From contig JAFAZI010000197.1 in assembly GCA_019239875.1 (NCBI GenBank), positions 1 to 64,000 of the forward strand: a DNA stretch of 64,000 bases. The letters are read 5' to 3'. Made by a program: the position numbers and the translations under genes. Each line of letters starts with the position of its first letter. Within the stretch, counting starts at the first letter, position 1. Under the pieces are notes generated by a model. The model made no database searches and was not told where the DNA came from. It worked only from the letters and a program-made list of their open reading frames with translations. Shown here in pieces: positions 5,434 through 14,781 of this stretch. This DNA comes from Frankiaceae bacterium (GTDB taxonomy: Bacteria > Actinomycetota > Actinomycetes > JAFAQI01).

Positions 5434-5450
5434 CACAACGCGCCGTTGTG
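5434..5450. promoter_or_regulatory. inverted repeat CACAACG-CGC-CGTTGTG upstream of the Hsp70-like/dynamin operon
   Basis: Perfect 7-bp arms, 3-nt spacer, 50 bp upstream of the start at 5500; no T tract follows. Confidence 0.4.
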
Positions 5451-5499
5451 GTTGAGCACTCCGATTGCCAGTGCGAGACTGCGGCTCTCTGCAACGGAC

Positions 5500-7581
5500 A
5501 TGGGGGACTGGGTGGGCTACTACATCGGGGTTGACCTCGGGACGACGTACACGGCTGCTGCCGTCGCCCGAGACGACCGCGTCGAGGTAGCGGCGCTCGG
5601 CAACCACTCGACGGCTGTGTCGTCCGTCCTCTGGGTGGGTGAGCAGGGTGACGTGCTCGTCGGCGATGCCGCGCAGCGCCGAGCGCTGTCCGATCCCGCC
5701 CGCGTTGCCCGGGAGTTCAAGCGCCGCCTCGGTGACACGACCCCGCTGTTGCTCGGCGGCACGCCGTACTCGGCGGAGGCACTGTCGGCGAAGCTGCTGT
5801 CGTGGGTCGTCGCGGAGGTGACCCGGACTGAGGGCGCGCCGCCGGACGGCGTCGCCGTCACCCACCCGGCCAACTGGGGCTCGTACAAGAAGGACCTGCT
5901 CGCCCAGGCCGTCCGGCTGGCCGACCTTCCGGCGGCGACAACCCTCACCGAGCCACAGGCCGCCGCGATCTTCTATGCCTCGCAACAGCGGGTCGAGGCG
6001 GGTGACGTGGTCGCGGTCTTCGACCTGGGTGGCGGCACCTTCGACGCGGCTGTGATCCGCAAGGTCGACGACGGCCGGTTCGACATCCTGGGCGAGCCGG
6101 AGGGCATCGAGCGACTCGGTGGGATCGATTTCGACGATGCGGTCTACGCCCATGTCACCGCGATGGCGCAGGAGGCCATCGACGGTCTCGACCCGGACGA
6201 TCCGACGGCGGTGACCGCGGTCGCGAGGCTGCGCGAGGAGTGCGTCGAGGCGAAGGAGGTGCTGTCCTCCGACACGGAGACGACGGTTCCGGTGATCCTG
6301 CCGTCGATGTCCACCGAGGTGCGGTTGACCCGGGCCGAGTTCGAGGACATGATCCGGCCCCGGATCGAGGACGCCATCGGGGCGATGCGCCGCTCGCTGG
6401 CCACCGCCGAGGTCGAACCGAAGGACGTCAAGGCGATCCTGCTGGTCGGCGGGTCGTCGCGGATCCCGCTGATCGCGCAGATGGTGTCGGCGGCCTTCGG
6501 CCGGCCGGTGGCCGTTGACGCCCATCCCAAGAACGCCATCGCGATGGGGGCGGCGATCGCTGCCCGGACGGCCGCGGAGGGGCCGGTTGCCGAGGCGGCC
6601 GCCGTCGAGGAGCCGCCGCTGCCCGTGCAGCCGGAACGGGACACGACCGCAGTGCTGGGATCACCGCTTGCCGATGCCGAGCTGGCTCCGACCACCCCCC
6701 TCGTCACGCCGCCGTCGGTGCCCCCGCCGCCCCCGACCGCGAAGGGCGGCCGGAGCAAGGCAGCGATGATCCTGCCGGCGTTGCTCGGCCTCGCGCTCGT
6801 CGCCGGCGGCGCCTATTACATGTTCGGGCGCGACAAGGGCCACGACCACAACAAGTCCAAGGCGTCGTCATCGTCAGGGACTTCGGGGTCGAGCGGGTCG
6901 AGTGGCTCGAGCAGCGGGGGGACACCGACCACGGCACCGACGCCGCACGAGATCCTGACCGAGGACCTCCTGCTCAACCCGGCGAGTGACACCACACCGG
7001 TCGACTCCCACGGCTCGATCGAGTGCCAGAACGTCGCCGCCTGGGCGCGCGGGGTCGACCCGTCGACGGCTGGCTCCAACTTCCAGACGCAGTGCGTCCG
7101 GGTCACGTGGCAGAAGGACGGGTCGGACGAGCAGGTTGTCGCGGCCTTCACGACGACCGCCGATGGGTCGCTGTCGCCGCGGGTGGAGATCCTGACCCAG
7201 GACGCCTCCGGCATGTGGATCCCGGTGCTCGACGCGGACGGATCGGCGGAGAGCTTCTCGAAGGCCACGATCAGCGACCCCTCCCTGACCGGGAGCGGCG
7301 AGGTCGACCCCGAGTTCGTCGTCAACTGGCACAAGAACGACGGCGCTCAGCAGACCACGATCGTGCAGAGCAACAACGGGGTGCCGGCGGTCATCGGCCA
7401 GACCATCGAGGCGTTCCAGGCGAGCCTCGTGATCAGCGGCTCGCGAATCGTCATCTACGGCGCCAAGACCGACGGCGGCGACCTGCGGCAGAACACCATC
7501 ACCTGGAACTCCTCGCAGGGGAAGTACTTCGGGTTGTTCAACTACGACGTGCACCCGCCGGTCCCGTCGTCCTCGCTGTGA
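5500..7581 (+). CDS. membrane-anchored Hsp70-family protein (DnaK-like ATPase domain + TM + Ser/Gly linker + C-terminal domain)
   Basis: Phosphate-1 YIGVDLGTTYTAAAV, phosphate-2 VAVFDLGGGTFDAAVI, adenosine ILLVGGSSRIPLIAQMV; TM AAMILPALLGLALVAGGAYYMF; SSSSGTSGSSGSSGSSSGG linker. Confidence 0.93.
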   Translation: MGDWVGYYIGVDLGTTYTAAAVARDDRVEVAALGNHSTAVSSVLWVGEQGDVLVGDAAQRRALSDPARVAREFKRRLGDTTPLLLGGTPYSAEALSAKLLSWVVAEVTRTEGAPPDGVAVTHPANWGSYKKDLLAQAVRLADLPAATTLTEPQAAAIFYASQQRVEAGDVVAVFDLGGGTFDAAVIRKVDDGRFDILGEPEGIERLGGIDFDDAVYAHVTAMAQEAIDGLDPDDPTAVTAVARLREECVEAKEVLSSDTETTVPVILPSMSTEVRLTRAEFEDMIRPRIEDAIGAMRRSLATAEVEPKDVKAILLVGGSSRIPLIAQMVSAAFGRPVAVDAHPKNAIAMGAAIAARTAAEGPVAEAAAVEEPPLPVQPERDTTAVLGSPLADAELAPTTPLVTPPSVPPPPPTAKGGRSKAAMILPALLGLALVAGGAYYMFGRDKGHDHNKSKASSSSGTSGSSGSSGSSSGGTPTTAPTPHEILTEDLLLNPASDTTPVDSHGSIECQNVAAWARGVDPSTAGSNFQTQCVRVTWQKDGSDEQVVAAFTTTADGSLSPRVEILTQDASGMWIPVLDADGSAESFSKATISDPSLTGSGEVDPEFVVNWHKNDGAQQTTIVQSNNGVPAVIGQTIEAFQASLVISGSRIVIYGAKTDGGDLRQNTITWNSSQGKYFGLFNYDVHPPVPSSSL

Positions 7582-7610: not shown

Positions 7611-8435
7611 ATGGCATCGCTGCAGGAGCTGTTGAAATGGCTCGAGCAGTTCATGCACGGCAACCTCTCGCAGCACAACCAGCCGCACGCCCCAACCAGC
7701 GCAGCCGGCGCGGTGCCTCATGCGTCCATGCCCTCCATGTCGTCGATGCCGCACGCGCCGATGCCGGCCGGCGCGGATCATCCAGGGCTGCCGCCTGGGC
7801 TGGCCGGCGCCTCACCGCAGGAACTTCAGGCGGCCATGCAGCAGTTCACCGAGCGCCACCCGGAGCTCGCGCCGTACCTGCACATCGACGGGTCGACCGA
7901 TCTGCAGTCGATGCTCAGCCAGCTGCAGTCGATCCCGGTGGAGGCGTTGCAGGGCTTCACGCCGTCGACCGACCTGGCCGAACCTGACGGCTTCGACCTC
8001 GGCGGCCCGATGGCCGCGGAGTTCGGCGTGCCCGGGTTCGATGCCGAGGACGTCAGCAACTTCAACAGTTTCGCTGATGGGCTCGGGTCCGGCGGCGCCG
8101 GCGAGCTCTCCGATCTGCCGTCCGTGCTGCTGGACCCGACAGCCGGTGAGTTCGGCCCGTTGCCGACGTCGGTGGGCGCCGGCATCGGCGACGACTACGA
8201 CGCGTTGGCCGGAGCCCTGTCGGGTGACCTGGGCGCCGACTACACCGACCTGCTGGAGAACGTGCCGACGGTCAGCTTCGAGCCAGATCTACCGACCGTC
8301 GAGCCGATCGGGGAGAGCTTCGATCCGGCCACCCAGGACTTCGACGCCGGGCTTCCGGCGTACGACGAGCAGCAGTTCGAGGCACCGCTGCACGGCGAGG
8401 ACTTCACCCAGGTCGAGGACTACCAGGACCAATGA
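7611..8435 (+). CDS. uncharacterised protein in IniB-like operon position; His/Met/Pro-rich N-terminal region
   Basis: MASLQELLKWLEQFMHGNLSQHNQPHAPTSAAGAVPHASMPSMSSMPHAPMPAG...; 29-bp gap after the Hsp70-like gene; stop overlaps next start (ATGA). Confidence 0.8.
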   Translation: MASLQELLKWLEQFMHGNLSQHNQPHAPTSAAGAVPHASMPSMSSMPHAPMPAGADHPGLPPGLAGASPQELQAAMQQFTERHPELAPYLHIDGSTDLQSMLSQLQSIPVEALQGFTPSTDLAEPDGFDLGGPMAAEFGVPGFDAEDVSNFNSFADGLGSGGAGELSDLPSVLLDPTAGEFGPLPTSVGAGIGDDYDALAGALSGDLGADYTDLLENVPTVSFEPDLPTVEPIGESFDPATQDFDAGLPAYDEQQFEAPLHGEDFTQVEDYQDQ

Positions 8436-10303
8436 CAGCGCCGAATCCAACCCCCGCGGCCGCGCCCGATGCGGGCAAGCAACGCGGCGAGCTGATCAAG
8501 GTCATGGCGGCCGCCGCCACCGCGGCGCAGAACGGCAAACGCGGCGACCTGGTCAAGAAGCTGCAGTCGGCGACGGCGCGCCTGACCTCCAGCGGTGCGC
8601 GGGTCGCGGTTGTCGGGGAGTTCAAGAAGGGCAAGAGCTCGGTCGTCAACTCGCTCATCGGCGGCGCGGTGTGCCCGGTCGACGACGACATCAGCACCGC
8701 CGTACCGACCGTTCTGCGCTATGCGGACACGCTGTCCATCACAGGCGTCGCCCTCGAGGGCGAGCCACCGAAGGAGGTCGCCAAAGAGCTCAGCAAGGAG
8801 CAGATGGGCAAGGCGATTCGCGGTGCGGGTGACTTCCAGCGCGTGGAGATTGCGCTGCCGAGCCCCTTGCTCAAGACCGGACTGGTGGTCATCGACACGC
8901 CGGGTGTCGGTGGTCTGCAGTCGGAGCACGCGTTGCGAACGCTCGCGATGCTGCCGTCCGTGCATGCGCTGCTGTTCGTCTCGGACGCGACGCAGGAGCT
9001 GACCGCTCCAGAGATCGCCTTTCTCGCCAACGCGCGGCGCCTGTGCTCCAACGTCGTCTGCGTCCTCGCGAAGACCGACATCTTCCCGTTCGTCGATGCG
9101 GTGGTCGAGGCGAACCAGAAGCATCTGACGAACGCCGGGATTGCCGCTCCGATGATGACGGTCTCCTGCGAGCTTCGAGCCCGCGCCCGGGCGGCGAAGG
9201 ACCCGGTGCTGGGCGAGGCGTCGGGATTCGGGCCGCTCGAGGCGATGCTCGTCACGCGGATCGCGGCGAACGCCGAGGCGTTGGCAATGCGCGCCGCCGC
9301 CGCCGATGTGTTGAGCGTTCTCGACCAGCTGTCCAAGCCGCTGGCAGCGGTGCGGGAGGCGCTGAAGACGCCCGAGAACCAGGCCGAGCTGCAGGCCAAT
9401 CTCGAAGCGGCGAAGCACCGTGCCGAGTCGCTGCGGGCGCAGACCGCCAAGTGGCAGATGGTGCTCTCCGACGGCGTGATGGACCTGCAGAACGAGGTCG
9501 ACCACGACATGCGGGCGCGGATGCGAGCCATCAGCCAGGAGGCAGAAGCGTCACTCGACCAGAGCGATCCAGTGAAGATGTGGGACGAGTTCGGGCAGTG
9601 GCTCGAGACTCGGGTCGTGTACGACGTCACCGAGAACTACGTGATGTTCACCCAGCATGCGCTCGCCCTGACCGAGCGGGTCGGCGCGATGTTCGCCGAG
9701 GACGCCGCTGACCTCGGCGAGGTCGCGAACGTCGCCGCCCCGACTCATCTGCTCGACAAGGTGATCGACCCTGAGCTCCCGAAGGCCGCCCTGCAGGGAG
9801 GCGGTGGTTCGGCCGCGATCTCGTTGTTCCGCAACACCTACAGCGGAATGTCGATGTTCGGGGCGCTCGGGGGCCAGGGAATGATGCACATCTTCACCGG
9901 GGCGATGAACCCGTTGACGCTCGGTCTCGGTCTCGTCCTCGGCAGCCGGTCGGTCAGCGACGAGCACACCCGGCAGCTCGAGGCTCGCCGAAACCATGCC
10001 AAGGCGGCGGTCCGCAAATACACCGACGAGGCGTCGTTCGTCGTCGGCAAGGACTCCCGCGACGCGATCCGCACCTTGCAGCGGTCGGTGCGTGACACGT
10101 ACTCCGCACTCGCCGAGGAGCTCGTCAGGTCGACCACGACCGCGGTGCAGCAAGCCACCGCGGCTCTGCAAGGCGCGCAACAGGATCACCAGAAGAAGCT
10201 GCAGGCGATCGACGCGACGTTGAAGGCGTATCAGACGCTCGCCGCGCAGGCGGCGAAGTTCGCGCCGCCCGTCGCCAAGGCAGCCCCGAAGGCAACCGGC
10301 TGA
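8432..10303 (+). CDS. dynamin-family GTPase, IniA-like
   Basis: GEFKKGKSSVVNSLIG P-loop, DTPGVGGL G3, AKTDIF G4; C-terminal hydrophobic GAMNPLTLGLGLVLGSRSVSDE and KSRD-type ending resemble mycobacterial IniA. Confidence 0.93.
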   Translation: MTAPNPTPAAAPDAGKQRGELIKVMAAAATAAQNGKRGDLVKKLQSATARLTSSGARVAVVGEFKKGKSSVVNSLIGGAVCPVDDDISTAVPTVLRYADTLSITGVALEGEPPKEVAKELSKEQMGKAIRGAGDFQRVEIALPSPLLKTGLVVIDTPGVGGLQSEHALRTLAMLPSVHALLFVSDATQELTAPEIAFLANARRLCSNVVCVLAKTDIFPFVDAVVEANQKHLTNAGIAAPMMTVSCELRARARAAKDPVLGEASGFGPLEAMLVTRIAANAEALAMRAAAADVLSVLDQLSKPLAAVREALKTPENQAELQANLEAAKHRAESLRAQTAKWQMVLSDGVMDLQNEVDHDMRARMRAISQEAEASLDQSDPVKMWDEFGQWLETRVVYDVTENYVMFTQHALALTERVGAMFAEDAADLGEVANVAAPTHLLDKVIDPELPKAALQGGGGSAAISLFRNTYSGMSMFGALGGQGMMHIFTGAMNPLTLGLGLVLGSRSVSDEHTRQLEARRNHAKAAVRKYTDEASFVVGKDSRDAIRTLQRSVRDTYSALAEELVRSTTTAVQQATAALQGAQQDHQKKLQAIDATLKAYQTLAAQAAKFAPPVAKAAPKATG

Positions 10304-11769
10304 TGTCGAACTCGCTGCTGGCGCGAACCGCGTCGGTCGCCGACCGAGCCGTCGCGGCGTATGCCGGGTCACCCGTCGAGGCCGCCAGCGTGGAGATCCG
10401 TCGCCGGCTGGACCTGCCGGTGCAGGTTGCGATCGCTGGAAAGGTGAAGGTCGGCAAGTCGACGCTGCTCAACGCGCTGGTCGGCGAGGAGCTCGCGCCG
10501 ACGAACGCCAGTGAGTGCACGCGCATCGTGACCTGGTATCGCCGCGCCGAGGTGACGCAGGTGACCGCCGTGCCGTACCAGGGGTCGCCGCACCCGGTGG
10601 CGTTCTCGCGCAACGGCGCCCTCGACGTCGAGCTCGGCGCCGAGTCCGCGGAGTCGCTGCGATGGCTGATGGTCGACTGGCCGACCGAGCGGCTCCGGGC
10701 GATGACCTTGGTCGACACGCCAGGCATCGCGTCGCTGTCGACCGACCTCTCGCAACGCACGACCGCCTTCCTCGATCCGACCAGCGAGGACCCGGGCACC
10801 GTCGATGCGGTCATCTACCTGATGCGACACATGCACACCGCAGACGTCCGGCTGCTCGAGAGCTTCCACGACCACGACCTCGCGCAGCCGAATCCGGTCA
10901 ACTGCATCGCCGTGCTCTCGCGCGCCGACGAGATCGGAGTGTGCCGGCTTGACGCGATGAAGTCGGCGCACGCCATCGCAGATCGATACATCGTGCAACC
11001 CTCGATCCGGCGCCTGGTGCAGGACGTCGTACCGGTCGCCGGCCTCCTTGCCCAAGCCGCCGTGTCGCTCCGGGAAGAGGAGTTCCGGTTCCTACGGTCG
11101 ATGGCGCAGGCAGGGGTCCGCTCGAACTCGCCGGTGCTCGGTTCGGTGCAGGAGCTCTCCGCGGCGGACACCGAGATCGACGACGTCGTCAGCGCCTCGG
11201 TGCGTCGGGCACTGGTCGAACGATTCGGGCTGTTCGGGGTGCGGTGGGCGATGGAGTGGCTGTCCCGGGCGCCGGAGGCGACGGCGACCGAGCTCGCCGA
11301 AGCGCTCGCGAAGGTGAGTGGCCTCACCCATCTCCGCGAGATCGTGATGCAACAGATCGCCGCACGGTCCGGGCTGCTCAAGGCCCGCTCGGCGATGACC
11401 GCGCTGACGCGCCTCGCGGCGACGAACCCGGTCAACGGGCTGTCGGAGGAGCTGGAGGCGCTGGCGGCGGGCGCACACGAGCTCGCCGAGCTCCGCATGC
11501 TCAACGCCCTCCGGCTCGGCGCCGTACCGCTGAAGGACGACCAGCTCGCAGAGGCGGAGCAGATCCTCGAACGCTCCGGCCAGGCGGCCGCGGCGCGGAT
11601 CGGGTTGCCACCGGACGCGGAGGTGGGCGAGGTACGACGCAAGCTGCTGGCCTCGCTCGAGACGTGGCAGAAGCGGGCCGAGAACCCGCTGTCCAAGCAG
11701 GCCGTGGTCGATGCCTGCCGCGTGCTCATCCGTAGCTACGAGGGGATGCTCACCGACCTCGCCGGTTGA
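10303..11769 (+). CDS. dynamin-family GTPase, IniC-like
   Basis: QVAIAGKVKVGKSTLLNALVGEELAPT P-loop, VDTPGIASLS G3, LSRADEI G4; TGATG overlap with upstream gene. Confidence 0.93.
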   Translation: MSNSLLARTASVADRAVAAYAGSPVEAASVEIRRRLDLPVQVAIAGKVKVGKSTLLNALVGEELAPTNASECTRIVTWYRRAEVTQVTAVPYQGSPHPVAFSRNGALDVELGAESAESLRWLMVDWPTERLRAMTLVDTPGIASLSTDLSQRTTAFLDPTSEDPGTVDAVIYLMRHMHTADVRLLESFHDHDLAQPNPVNCIAVLSRADEIGVCRLDAMKSAHAIADRYIVQPSIRRLVQDVVPVAGLLAQAAVSLREEEFRFLRSMAQAGVRSNSPVLGSVQELSAADTEIDDVVSASVRRALVERFGLFGVRWAMEWLSRAPEATATELAEALAKVSGLTHLREIVMQQIAARSGLLKARSAMTALTRLAATNPVNGLSEELEALAAGAHELAELRMLNALRLGAVPLKDDQLAEAEQILERSGQAAAARIGLPPDAEVGEVRRKLLASLETWQKRAENPLSKQAVVDACRVLIRSYEGMLTDLAG

Positions 11770-11772
11770 TGG

Positions 11773-12387
11773 CTAGAACAGGTCCCCGATGTCGTCGATG
11801 ATGCTGGAGCCGACGTCCGCCACGTCGTCGACCACGCTGGTCGCAACATCTGCGACCGCACCGCCGACGAACTCTGCGTCGTCGACGAGCACATCGCCGA
11901 GCAGGCCGGCACCGTCGCCGATCGTCTCGCCGACGTCACTCGCAGCGTCGCCGACCCAGCCGGCGACTGAGCCGAGGGCACCGCCCACGTCATCGACGAC
12001 ATCCATGGCGGCGTCGCCGATCGCGCCATCTCCGATATCGCTGAAGACCTCGCCGACGTCGTCGACGATGCTGCTCCCGATGTCGATGATCGGCGCGGCG
12101 ATCCACTCGGCGTCGTCGACCAGCACGTCGCCGAGGACCCCGGCGCCTTCGCCGATCGCCTCACCGACGTCAACCACCGCCCCCGCGATCCCGCTCGCGA
12201 CGTCACCGGCGGTGTCGACGACATCCATCGCCGCGCCGCCGACGATGTCCGCCGCCTGACCGAAATCACCGTCGACGACCGCACCAGCGATGCCGCCGAT
12301 TCCCTCAGCGACATCACCGACCGCGTCGATCACCGGCTCCGCGAGGTACTCAGCGCCTTCCGCTACGCCCTCGAAGTACTCCGTCAT
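11773..12387 (-). CDS. low-complexity Gly/Asp/Val-rich repeat protein ending in IDDIGDLF
   Basis: MTEYFEGVAEGAEYLAEPV...SSIIDDIGDLF; two internal ~75-aa repeats (AAMDVVD...GAG(V/L)LGDVLVDDAE). Confidence 0.78.
   Translation of the reverse strand: MTEYFEGVAEGAEYLAEPVIDAVGDVAEGIGGIAGAVVDGDFGQAADIVGGAAMDVVDTAGDVASGIAGAVVDVGEAIGEGAGVLGDVLVDDAEWIAAPIIDIGSSIVDDVGEVFSDIGDGAIGDAAMDVVDDVGGALGSVAGWVGDAASDVGETIGDGAGLLGDVLVDDAEFVGGAVADVATSVVDDVADVGSSIIDDIGDLF
11824..12234 (-). repeat. two diverged tandem protein-level repeats within the MTEYF protein
   Basis: Unit 1 aa 52-110 (12058-12234) and unit 2 aa 126-188 (11824-12012) share AAMDVVD, VGE(A/T)IG(E/D)GAG(V/L)LGDVLVDDAE, (I/V)VDDV. Confidence 0.7.
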
Positions 12388-12398
12388 GACGGGCTTGG

Positions 12399-13181
12399 TC
12401 AGAACAGGTCGCCGATGTCGTCGATGACGCTGCCGACCGCGTCGCCGATAGCTTCACCGGCACCTTCGACTGCGTCCACGACTCCACCGCCGACGTCACC
12501 GACGACTCCGCCGACGTCAGCGAGGCCGCCGAACAGGCCACCGCCGATGTCCTCGACCTCGTTGACTACGCCGCCGAACACGTCGCCGACCGCGCCGGCA
12601 CCGGCTTCGAGGCCGCCGAGCAGGCCGCCCGCGGCGTCCTCGACGCCGCCGACGACTCCGCCCACCCCGGACTCGATGCCGCCGAGCAAGCCCCCTCCGA
12701 CGTCCTCGACGGCTCCGATCACACTTCCGACACCGCTCGCGACACCTCCGACGACGCCCATGCCGATGTCCTCCGCGCCGGTCAGCAGACCGCCGCCGAT
12801 GTCCTCCAGGCCGCCGAGCACGTCACCCGACGCGATCTCGCCCACCCCGTCGACCAGACCACCGACCGCTGCCTCGCCGCCGCCGATCACACCGCCCGCG
12901 ATGGACTCGACGCCGTGCAGGGCACCACCGGCGATGTCACCGGCTCCGGCCAGCGCGCCACTCGCCACCGACTCGACCCCGTGCAGTGCCCCGCCGGCGA
13001 CTGACTCGGCCGCGCCGAGCTCGCCACCTGCGACCGACTCGAGCCCTTCCAAGCCGTGGCCCATGACGCCTTCCGCGGTCCCCAGCGCGTCGTGCCCCAG
13101 CTCCTCGGCGATTCCCAGTTCGCTCTCGAGCTGATGCTCGATGGCGGAGACGCCATCAGAAAAGCCGTCCTCGATGCTCAT
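12399..13181 (-). CDS. Gly/Val/Glu-rich repeat protein (IniB-like composition) ending in IDDIGDLF
   Basis: MSIEDGFSDGVSAIEHQLESELG...GGLLGGIESGVGGVVGGVEDAAGGLLGG...AVGSVIDDIGDLF; same C-terminus as neighbouring gene. Confidence 0.78.
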   Translation of the reverse strand: MSIEDGFSDGVSAIEHQLESELGIAEELGHDALGTAEGVMGHGLEGLESVAGGELGAAESVAGGALHGVESVASGALAGAGDIAGGALHGVESIAGGVIGGGEAAVGGLVDGVGEIASGDVLGGLEDIGGGLLTGAEDIGMGVVGGVASGVGSVIGAVEDVGGGLLGGIESGVGGVVGGVEDAAGGLLGGLEAGAGAVGDVFGGVVNEVEDIGGGLFGGLADVGGVVGDVGGGVVDAVEGAGEAIGDAVGSVIDDIGDLF

Positions 13182-13225: not shown

Positions 13226-13747
13226 TCAGCCCTCAAAGACCCCGCCGGGCCCCTGGTCGATCGTGTAGTCCGGCTCGGCTTGCATCGTCTCGAGCGTGTG
13301 ACCTTGGTCTTCGAAGCTCGAGAACTCCTGCGTCGGGTTGAGGTGAGCCTCGAGCTCCTCGATCTGCTGCTCGATCTGGTGCAGCTCCTCGAGCGGGCTC
13401 ATCGACTGCGGGTCGGATCCGGCGACTGGGTCGGATCCGGCACCTGGGTCCGCCGGGTGCTGCGCGAGCAGGTCCTGGTAGGCCTCGCCCATGGTCTGGT
13501 GGTTGGCGTCCTGGTAGGCCTGACCGACGGTCTCCACGTTGCCAAGCGTCGGCGGCGCGTCGCCGGCCAGCTCGTTCACAACCTCGACGAAGCCCGGCTC
13601 GAGAACTTCGGCGAGCAGGTTCGGGTCCTCCCGCAGCGCTGCCATCACGGCGTCGTGGTCGTTCTCGATCGCGCGCTGCTCGGTGTACTGGGTGCCCGCG
13701 AGGATGTCCGGGATGTTGTTGGCGGAGATGTCGTCGTTCTGACTCAT
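13226..13747 (-). CDS. uncharacterised acidic protein, first gene of the repeat-protein operon
   Basis: MSQNDDISANNIPDILAGTQYTEQRAIENDHDAVMAALREDPNLLAEVLEPGF...; AGGGGGA Shine-Dalgarno upstream of ATG at 13747. Confidence 0.75.
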   Translation of the reverse strand: MSQNDDISANNIPDILAGTQYTEQRAIENDHDAVMAALREDPNLLAEVLEPGFVEVVNELAGDAPPTLGNVETVGQAYQDANHQTMGEAYQDLLAQHPADPGAGSDPVAGSDPQSMSPLEELHQIEQQIEELEAHLNPTQEFSSFEDQGHTLETMQAEPDYTIDQGPGGVFEG

Positions 13748-13783
13748 GCGAGTCCCCCTTGACACAGGATCCGATCCGAAGGG

Positions 13784-13822
13784 GTCAAACGGTCGCACCG
13801 GGCGTAGTAGGTGTCAAACGGT
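13784..13822 (-). promoter_or_regulatory. paired direct repeats ACCGTTTGAC upstream of the repeat-protein operon
   Basis: GTCAAACGGT at 13784-13793 and 13813-13822 (+ strand), 29 bp apart start to start. Confidence 0.4.
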
Positions 13823-14565: not shown

Positions 14566-14781
14566 TCAGGGCTTGGACTGGTCGGCTTGCTTCGCTTCCT
14601 TCTCGATGTAGTCCTCCGCCTTGTCGGCGAACTTCGAGATCTGGCCGTGGTGCTTGCCGCCGGTCTTCTTGTCGACGATGCCCTCGACCTTGGACAGCGC
14701 CGACTTCAACTGATCGGGATGCTCGCCGACCGCCTTCTCGACCTGCGACGCGGTCTTCTTGATCTTGTCCAGGAATCCCAT
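14566..14781 (-). CDS. MT0933-like antitoxin family small protein
   Basis: MGFLDKIKKTASQVEKAVGEHPDQLKSALSKVEGIVDKKTGGKHHGQISKFADKAEDYIEKEAKQADQSKP. Confidence 0.72.
   Translation of the reverse strand: MGFLDKIKKTASQVEKAVGEHPDQLKSALSKVEGIVDKKTGGKHHGQISKFADKAEDYIEKEAKQADQSKP

Follow-up and report, generated by a model that had tools for sequence, protein, structure and literature searches.

A shared acidic, phenylalanine-ended tail on repeat proteins suggests an overlooked docking signal of a bacterial dynamin system

Bacterial dynamins are membrane-remodelling GTPases that make up a widespread, poorly understood stress system. In the stretch of DNA analyzed here (the window, 64,000 nucleotides from a Frankiaceae bacterium), an operon encoding two of them converges on two genes for highly acidic repeat proteins, P1 and P2, which share their last residues. 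The question raised by this locus is what such a shared tail does, and whether it connects the repeat proteins to the dynamins.

The dynamin operon and the convergent repeat genes

The features of the locus are listed below by position in the window.

5446–7581, plus strand: Hsp70-like protein, first gene of the dynamin operon (Pfam HSP70)
7611–8435, plus strand: small protein in the IniB position, starting MASLQELLKWLEQFMHG, without tag or tip
8432–10303, plus strand: IniA-type dynamin-like GTPase (Pfam Dynamin_N; match to M. smegmatis IniA, 6j72)
10303–11769, plus strand: IniC-type dynamin-like GTPase (Pfam Dynamin_N; identity to second dynamins elsewhere)
11773–12387, minus strand: P1, 204-aa acidic helical-repeat protein of two modules, tag SSIIDDIGDLF
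11776–11799, minus strand: tag IDDIGDLF of P1 (stop TAG, 11773–11775)
12043–12066, minus strand: internal tag-like VDDVGEVF, residues 108–115 of P1, end of the first module
12399–13181, minus strand: P2, 260-aa acidic 11-residue-repeat protein, tag GSVIDDIGDLF
12402–12425, minus strand: tag IDDIGDLF of P2 (stop TGA, 12399–12401)
13226–13798, minus strand: 190-aa ORF, first of a three-gene run, ending GGVFEG, without tag
14566–14781, minus strand: small MT0933-like antitoxin gene near the tagged run (Pfam E 2.7e-11)

The IniA-type dynamin matches 6j72 over residues 29–611 (E 1.4e-92), and the IniC-type dynamin directly downstream of it is 39–47% identical, over about 450–490 aa, to the dynamins that come second in other actinobacterial operons. 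A search for IniB_NTERM (NF038175) gave no match in the genome of the window (G000) or in G006, a genome from another genus of the same family. Since the dynamins are iniBAC-like but IniB_NTERM is absent, we class the operon as a variant and not as iniBAC proper. On the minus strand, the 190-aa ORF, P2, and P1 form a three-gene run convergent with the Hsp70/dynamin operon, with only 3 bp separating the stops of P1 and the IniC-type gene. P1 ends in ADVGSSIIDDIGDLF (ORF 11773–12387, minus strand) and P2 in DAVGSVIDDIGDLF (ORF 12399–13181, minus strand), both closing on IDDIGDLF-COOH; the two adjacent ORFs are as the first-pass annotation had described them. No Pfam or NCBIfam family matched P1 or P2, and no family matched the 190-aa ORF.

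Both bodies are extremely acidic. P1 has 46 D/E and no K/R (net charge -46), a hydrophobic period of 3.69 residues, and autocorrelation at 11 and 18, while P2 has 44 D/E and no K/R (net charge -44), a period of 3.67, and autocorrelation at 11 and 22. The hydrophobic helical period was unmatched by any shuffle in seven of eight proteins, and in six of those seven it falls at 3.65–3.69 residues (11/3), with autocorrelation at 11 and often 22; in a further tagged protein, on contig C85 (see below), the period peaks at 3.56. Over the last 18 residues the helix is amphipathic (hydrophobic moment 0.54–0.59). P2 is predicted to be a nearly continuous helix (AlphaFold, pLDDT 82), the P1 model being weak (pLDDT 50), and comparison of the P2 model with PDB folds gave chance-level matches only, none with E < 0.001.

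Distribution and conservation of the tag

The DNA pattern for IDDIGDLF followed by a stop occurs three times in the 4.1-Mb source genome, against an expectation by arithmetic of about 1e-5 (chance of about 1e-12 per position), and gave no match in a reversed-sequence control. Three further proteins of this genome end in IDDIGDLF, IDDIEDLF, and IDEIGDLF: two make up another tagged pair, on the 2.3-kb contig C40 (SVIDDIEDLF and DIIDDIGDLF), and the third is the orphan on C85 (VIDEIGDLF). A looser terminal pattern matched six times; five of the matches are acidic low-complexity repeat proteins with the tag at the extreme C-terminus, and the sixth has TGG where the stop would be. All repeat proteins of the P1/P2 kind found in the source genome carry the tag.

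The C40 pair (L002, G000:C40:1-2267) is flanked on one side by a nucleoside 2-deoxyribosyltransferase-like gene (Pfam E 1.2e-20) and on the other by a gene for a SLATT-like 2TM protein, whose Pfam match is below cut-off; this mix of genes recalls nucleotide-signalling conflict systems. Identification of the C40 proteins as Rep_1B or CsmC, from weak Pfam matches below cut-off, was rejected.

G006 encodes a tagged protein ending in VVDDIGDLF, which is convergent to iniC as in the window, and an IniB-position protein of 762 aa ending in DDIENFL; a relative on C62 has DDIESIF as its C-terminus. Among the 13 genomes of the order, a small sample in which several relatives are incomplete, the dynamin operon and the tagged proteins or repeat module are both present in two (G000 and G006) and both missing in 11, which upholds the proposed tie between the tag and an Hsp70/dynamin neighborhood. 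Across 395 genomes of the class, no further one has the exact tag, nor were there matches to it in genome_contigs and viral_contigs, to the tag regex across dynamin loci from genome_contigs, or in plasmid tblastn searches using P1 or the C85 protein as query. Repeat-module matches in the distant genomes G059, G088, and G118 were discarded, as they fall in low-complexity frames that are either unrelated or anti-sense. In its exact form the tag is lineage-specific and occurs in two genera only.

The tag is C-terminal in all six strict proteins, and its sole internal near-copy is the VDDVGEVF that closes the first half-repeat of P1, so the C-terminal preference anticipated by the first-pass annotation held. 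When the six are anchored at the C-terminus, pairwise identity is 83% in the last nine residues and 31, 30, and 24% in the three successive upstream blocks of nine. Tag codons vary synonymously (GGG/GGC/GGT, GAC/GAT, CTG/CTC) with the residues mostly kept, and the stop codons after them vary as well (TAG/TGA/TAA). Homology also extends into the bodies. The C40a protein shares 69% identity with P2 over the last 26 aa (blast), its C-terminus also aligning to residue 115 of P1, and the last 212 aa of the G006 IniB-position protein align with the C85 protein at 50% identity. This last match is a fusion link joining the tagged proteins to the dynamin operon.

Looser tips on dynamin-operon partners

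The first-pass annotation had also proposed testing whether the tag is enriched beside dynamin/Hsp70 genes. For the exact tag there is no enrichment beside dynamins in general; what recurs is a looser acidic, Phe-ended tip on IniB-type proteins. We read 63 IniB_NTERM proteins from 35 genomes of the class to their C-termini. Phe is the last residue in 28 of the 63, against 6 of 256 other genes of the same loci, counts that are not independent, as family f5 alone supplied 44 of the 63, including 24 of the 28 that end in Phe. Phe lies within the last two residues in 40/63 and 9/256, respectively, and K/R in the last eight residues average 0.0 in the IniB_NTERM proteins vs. 0.99 in the other genes. 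Ends of the form [DN][LIVA]F(D) occur in 20 of the 63 and in none of 800 background proteins. In two mycobacterial-type orthologue groups, conservation of the last six residues is about double that of the preceding sequence. The IniB proteins of family f14 mostly end in ILG or VLA, without Phe. The six proteins P1, P2, and four others fit the proposed tip, ending in D-L-F with no K/R in the last eight residues. The tag resembles the mycobacterial IniB tips only in being acidic and in having Phe at or near the end, and homology is not implied.

Similar ends occur on proteins of other kinds. Of the seven background proteins whose ends are acidic with Phe, five are neighbors of dynamins, the latter identified by blast labels. 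Three of these neighbors, in one other bacterial family, end in ADDIDF (L152, 7650–8651), SDFTF (L171, 27–1902), and VEDIDF (L182, 8147–9475); they are unrelated proteins with N/D/S-repeat bodies and no IniB_NTERM. In two Acidimicrobiales loci (L022 and L052), dynamin neighbors end in DDVPFD.

Two observations may be added on these loci. The N-terminal helix of IniB (e.g., LLDWILDLF, LIDFILDLF; L150–L170) resembles the C-terminal tag VIDDIGDLF of the window, which may be chance or reflect a shared partner, and in the Acidimicrobiales loci L022 and L021 three successive Hsp70-like genes lie beside a dynamin pair whose IniB position is taken by low-complexity proteins.

A putative docking tip and its known counterparts

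We propose, with slightly better than even confidence, that the tag is a C-terminal acidic-hydrophobic docking tip for the IniA/IniC-type dynamin machinery. This reading draws on the near-identity of the last nine residues above a divergent body, the retention of the tag residues despite synonymous codon changes, the joint presence and absence of tagged proteins and dynamin operon, the tagging of every such repeat protein found in the source genome, the C85/G006 fusion link, and the recurrence of Phe-terminated acidic tips on IniB-type and unrelated dynamin-neighbor proteins. The tip would be a short peptide whose terminal Phe offers a free carboxylate, borne by highly acidic proteins of 11-residue helical repeats that act as partners of the dynamin pair. 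It would bind in a pocket of IniA or IniC, or of a shared scaffold, its partner most probably belonging to the dynamin system, and would tether P1, P2, and the C40 and C85 orphans to the membrane-remodelling complex; the variable repeat body would then act as a rod or as a surface coat. Against docking count the restriction of the exact tag to two genera, the f14 IniB proteins mostly without Phe, the C40 and C85 genes, which are not beside a dynamin in the available contigs, the IniB-position protein of the window itself, which lacks a tip, and the many dynamin pairs (e.g., in Micromonosporaceae) with no such partner in their flanks.

Plain paralogy, in which one repeat gene was copied, the N-termini were shuffled, and the common end is just the latest-copied or least-changed repeat, is unlikely to be the whole explanation. 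The blast homology beyond the tag (C40a with P2, C85 with the G006 protein) and the tag-like copy at the P1 module end speak for it, and duplication, which the first-pass annotation had raised, did contribute, as the tagged proteins share repeat homology. Yet identity drops from 83 to 31% directly upstream of the last nine residues, synonymous changes leave the residues in place, a second genus also keeps the tag, and non-homologous dynamin neighbors carry similar tips. That the tag caps the 11-residue amphipathic helix structurally or serves as its membrane-insertion end, with no protein docking, would suit the amphipathic last 18 residues and the 11/3 period, cf. the lipid-droplet-coating perilipin 4 (PMC5889406). 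We consider it decidedly improbable, given that a cap does not need near-invariant residues, that Phe tips are also found on N/D/S-rich proteins without this helical repeat, and that net charges of -44 and -46 with no K/R argue against direct binding to anionic membranes.

The first-pass annotation had left sorting, docking, and secretion side by side, of which docking is favored here. That a general cell machinery, not the dynamin system, reads the tag as a signal for sorting, secretion, or degradation seems very unlikely to us: the C-terminal placement and the C40 and C85 orphans away from the operon on the available contigs are compatible with it, but relatives lacking the dynamins have no tagged proteins, and an unsystematic look recognized none of the known C-terminal signals for secretion or degradation.

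Beyond the docking tip of this lineage, we suggest tentatively, and with less than even confidence, that actinobacterial IniA/IniC systems rely on acidic, Phe-ended C-termini as a general docking code, by which rapidly diversifying low-complexity partners are recruited in trans to the dynamin complex. If so, partners could be encoded in the operon or as orphans, and the connection between IniB and the GTPases would be explained despite the poorly conserved IniB body. A tip common to partners with unrelated bodies would be a concrete, peptide-sized link between the two, and missing dynamin partners might be found by their last residues.

The closest known system is the mycobacterial iniBAC operon (PMC6715688, PMC5760070), which is among the mycobacterial loci most strongly induced by drugs (PMC5760070) and has, as in the window, adjacent IniA- and IniC-type dynamins after a gene for a low-complexity protein; a dnaK-like gene near it has been reported in M. 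smegmatis (PMC6715688, PMC5760070). IniA carries out membrane fission in vitro, with help from IniC suspected (PMC6715688), and RNA sequencing has suggested that IniB may be in excess over both (PMC5760070). Like the tagged proteins, IniB-type proteins often have acidic-Phe C-terminal tips, of which a partial literature search found no description. Unlike iniBAC, the window operon is headed by Hsp70 and lacks IniB_NTERM, and its tag is borne by separate, convergent acidic helical-repeat proteins and not by the protein in the IniB position. Perilipin 4, whose 11-residue helices coat lipid droplets (PMC5889406), offers an analogy only for the P1/P2 body, as a long, weakly hydrophobic helix of 11/3 period, whereas the polar face of P1 and P2 is acidic only, without Lys/Arg, and a C-terminal tag is added. 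As a design analogy for the tag itself, bacterial SSB (tip DDDIPF; PMC5872125) likewise has a variable linker that closes in a conserved acidic peptide with Phe as its last residue. The body of the tagged proteins differs in being an acidic helical repeat with no recognized OB domain, but the tip may act as the SSB tail does, recruiting partners through a conserved Phe-ended peptide on a variable linker.
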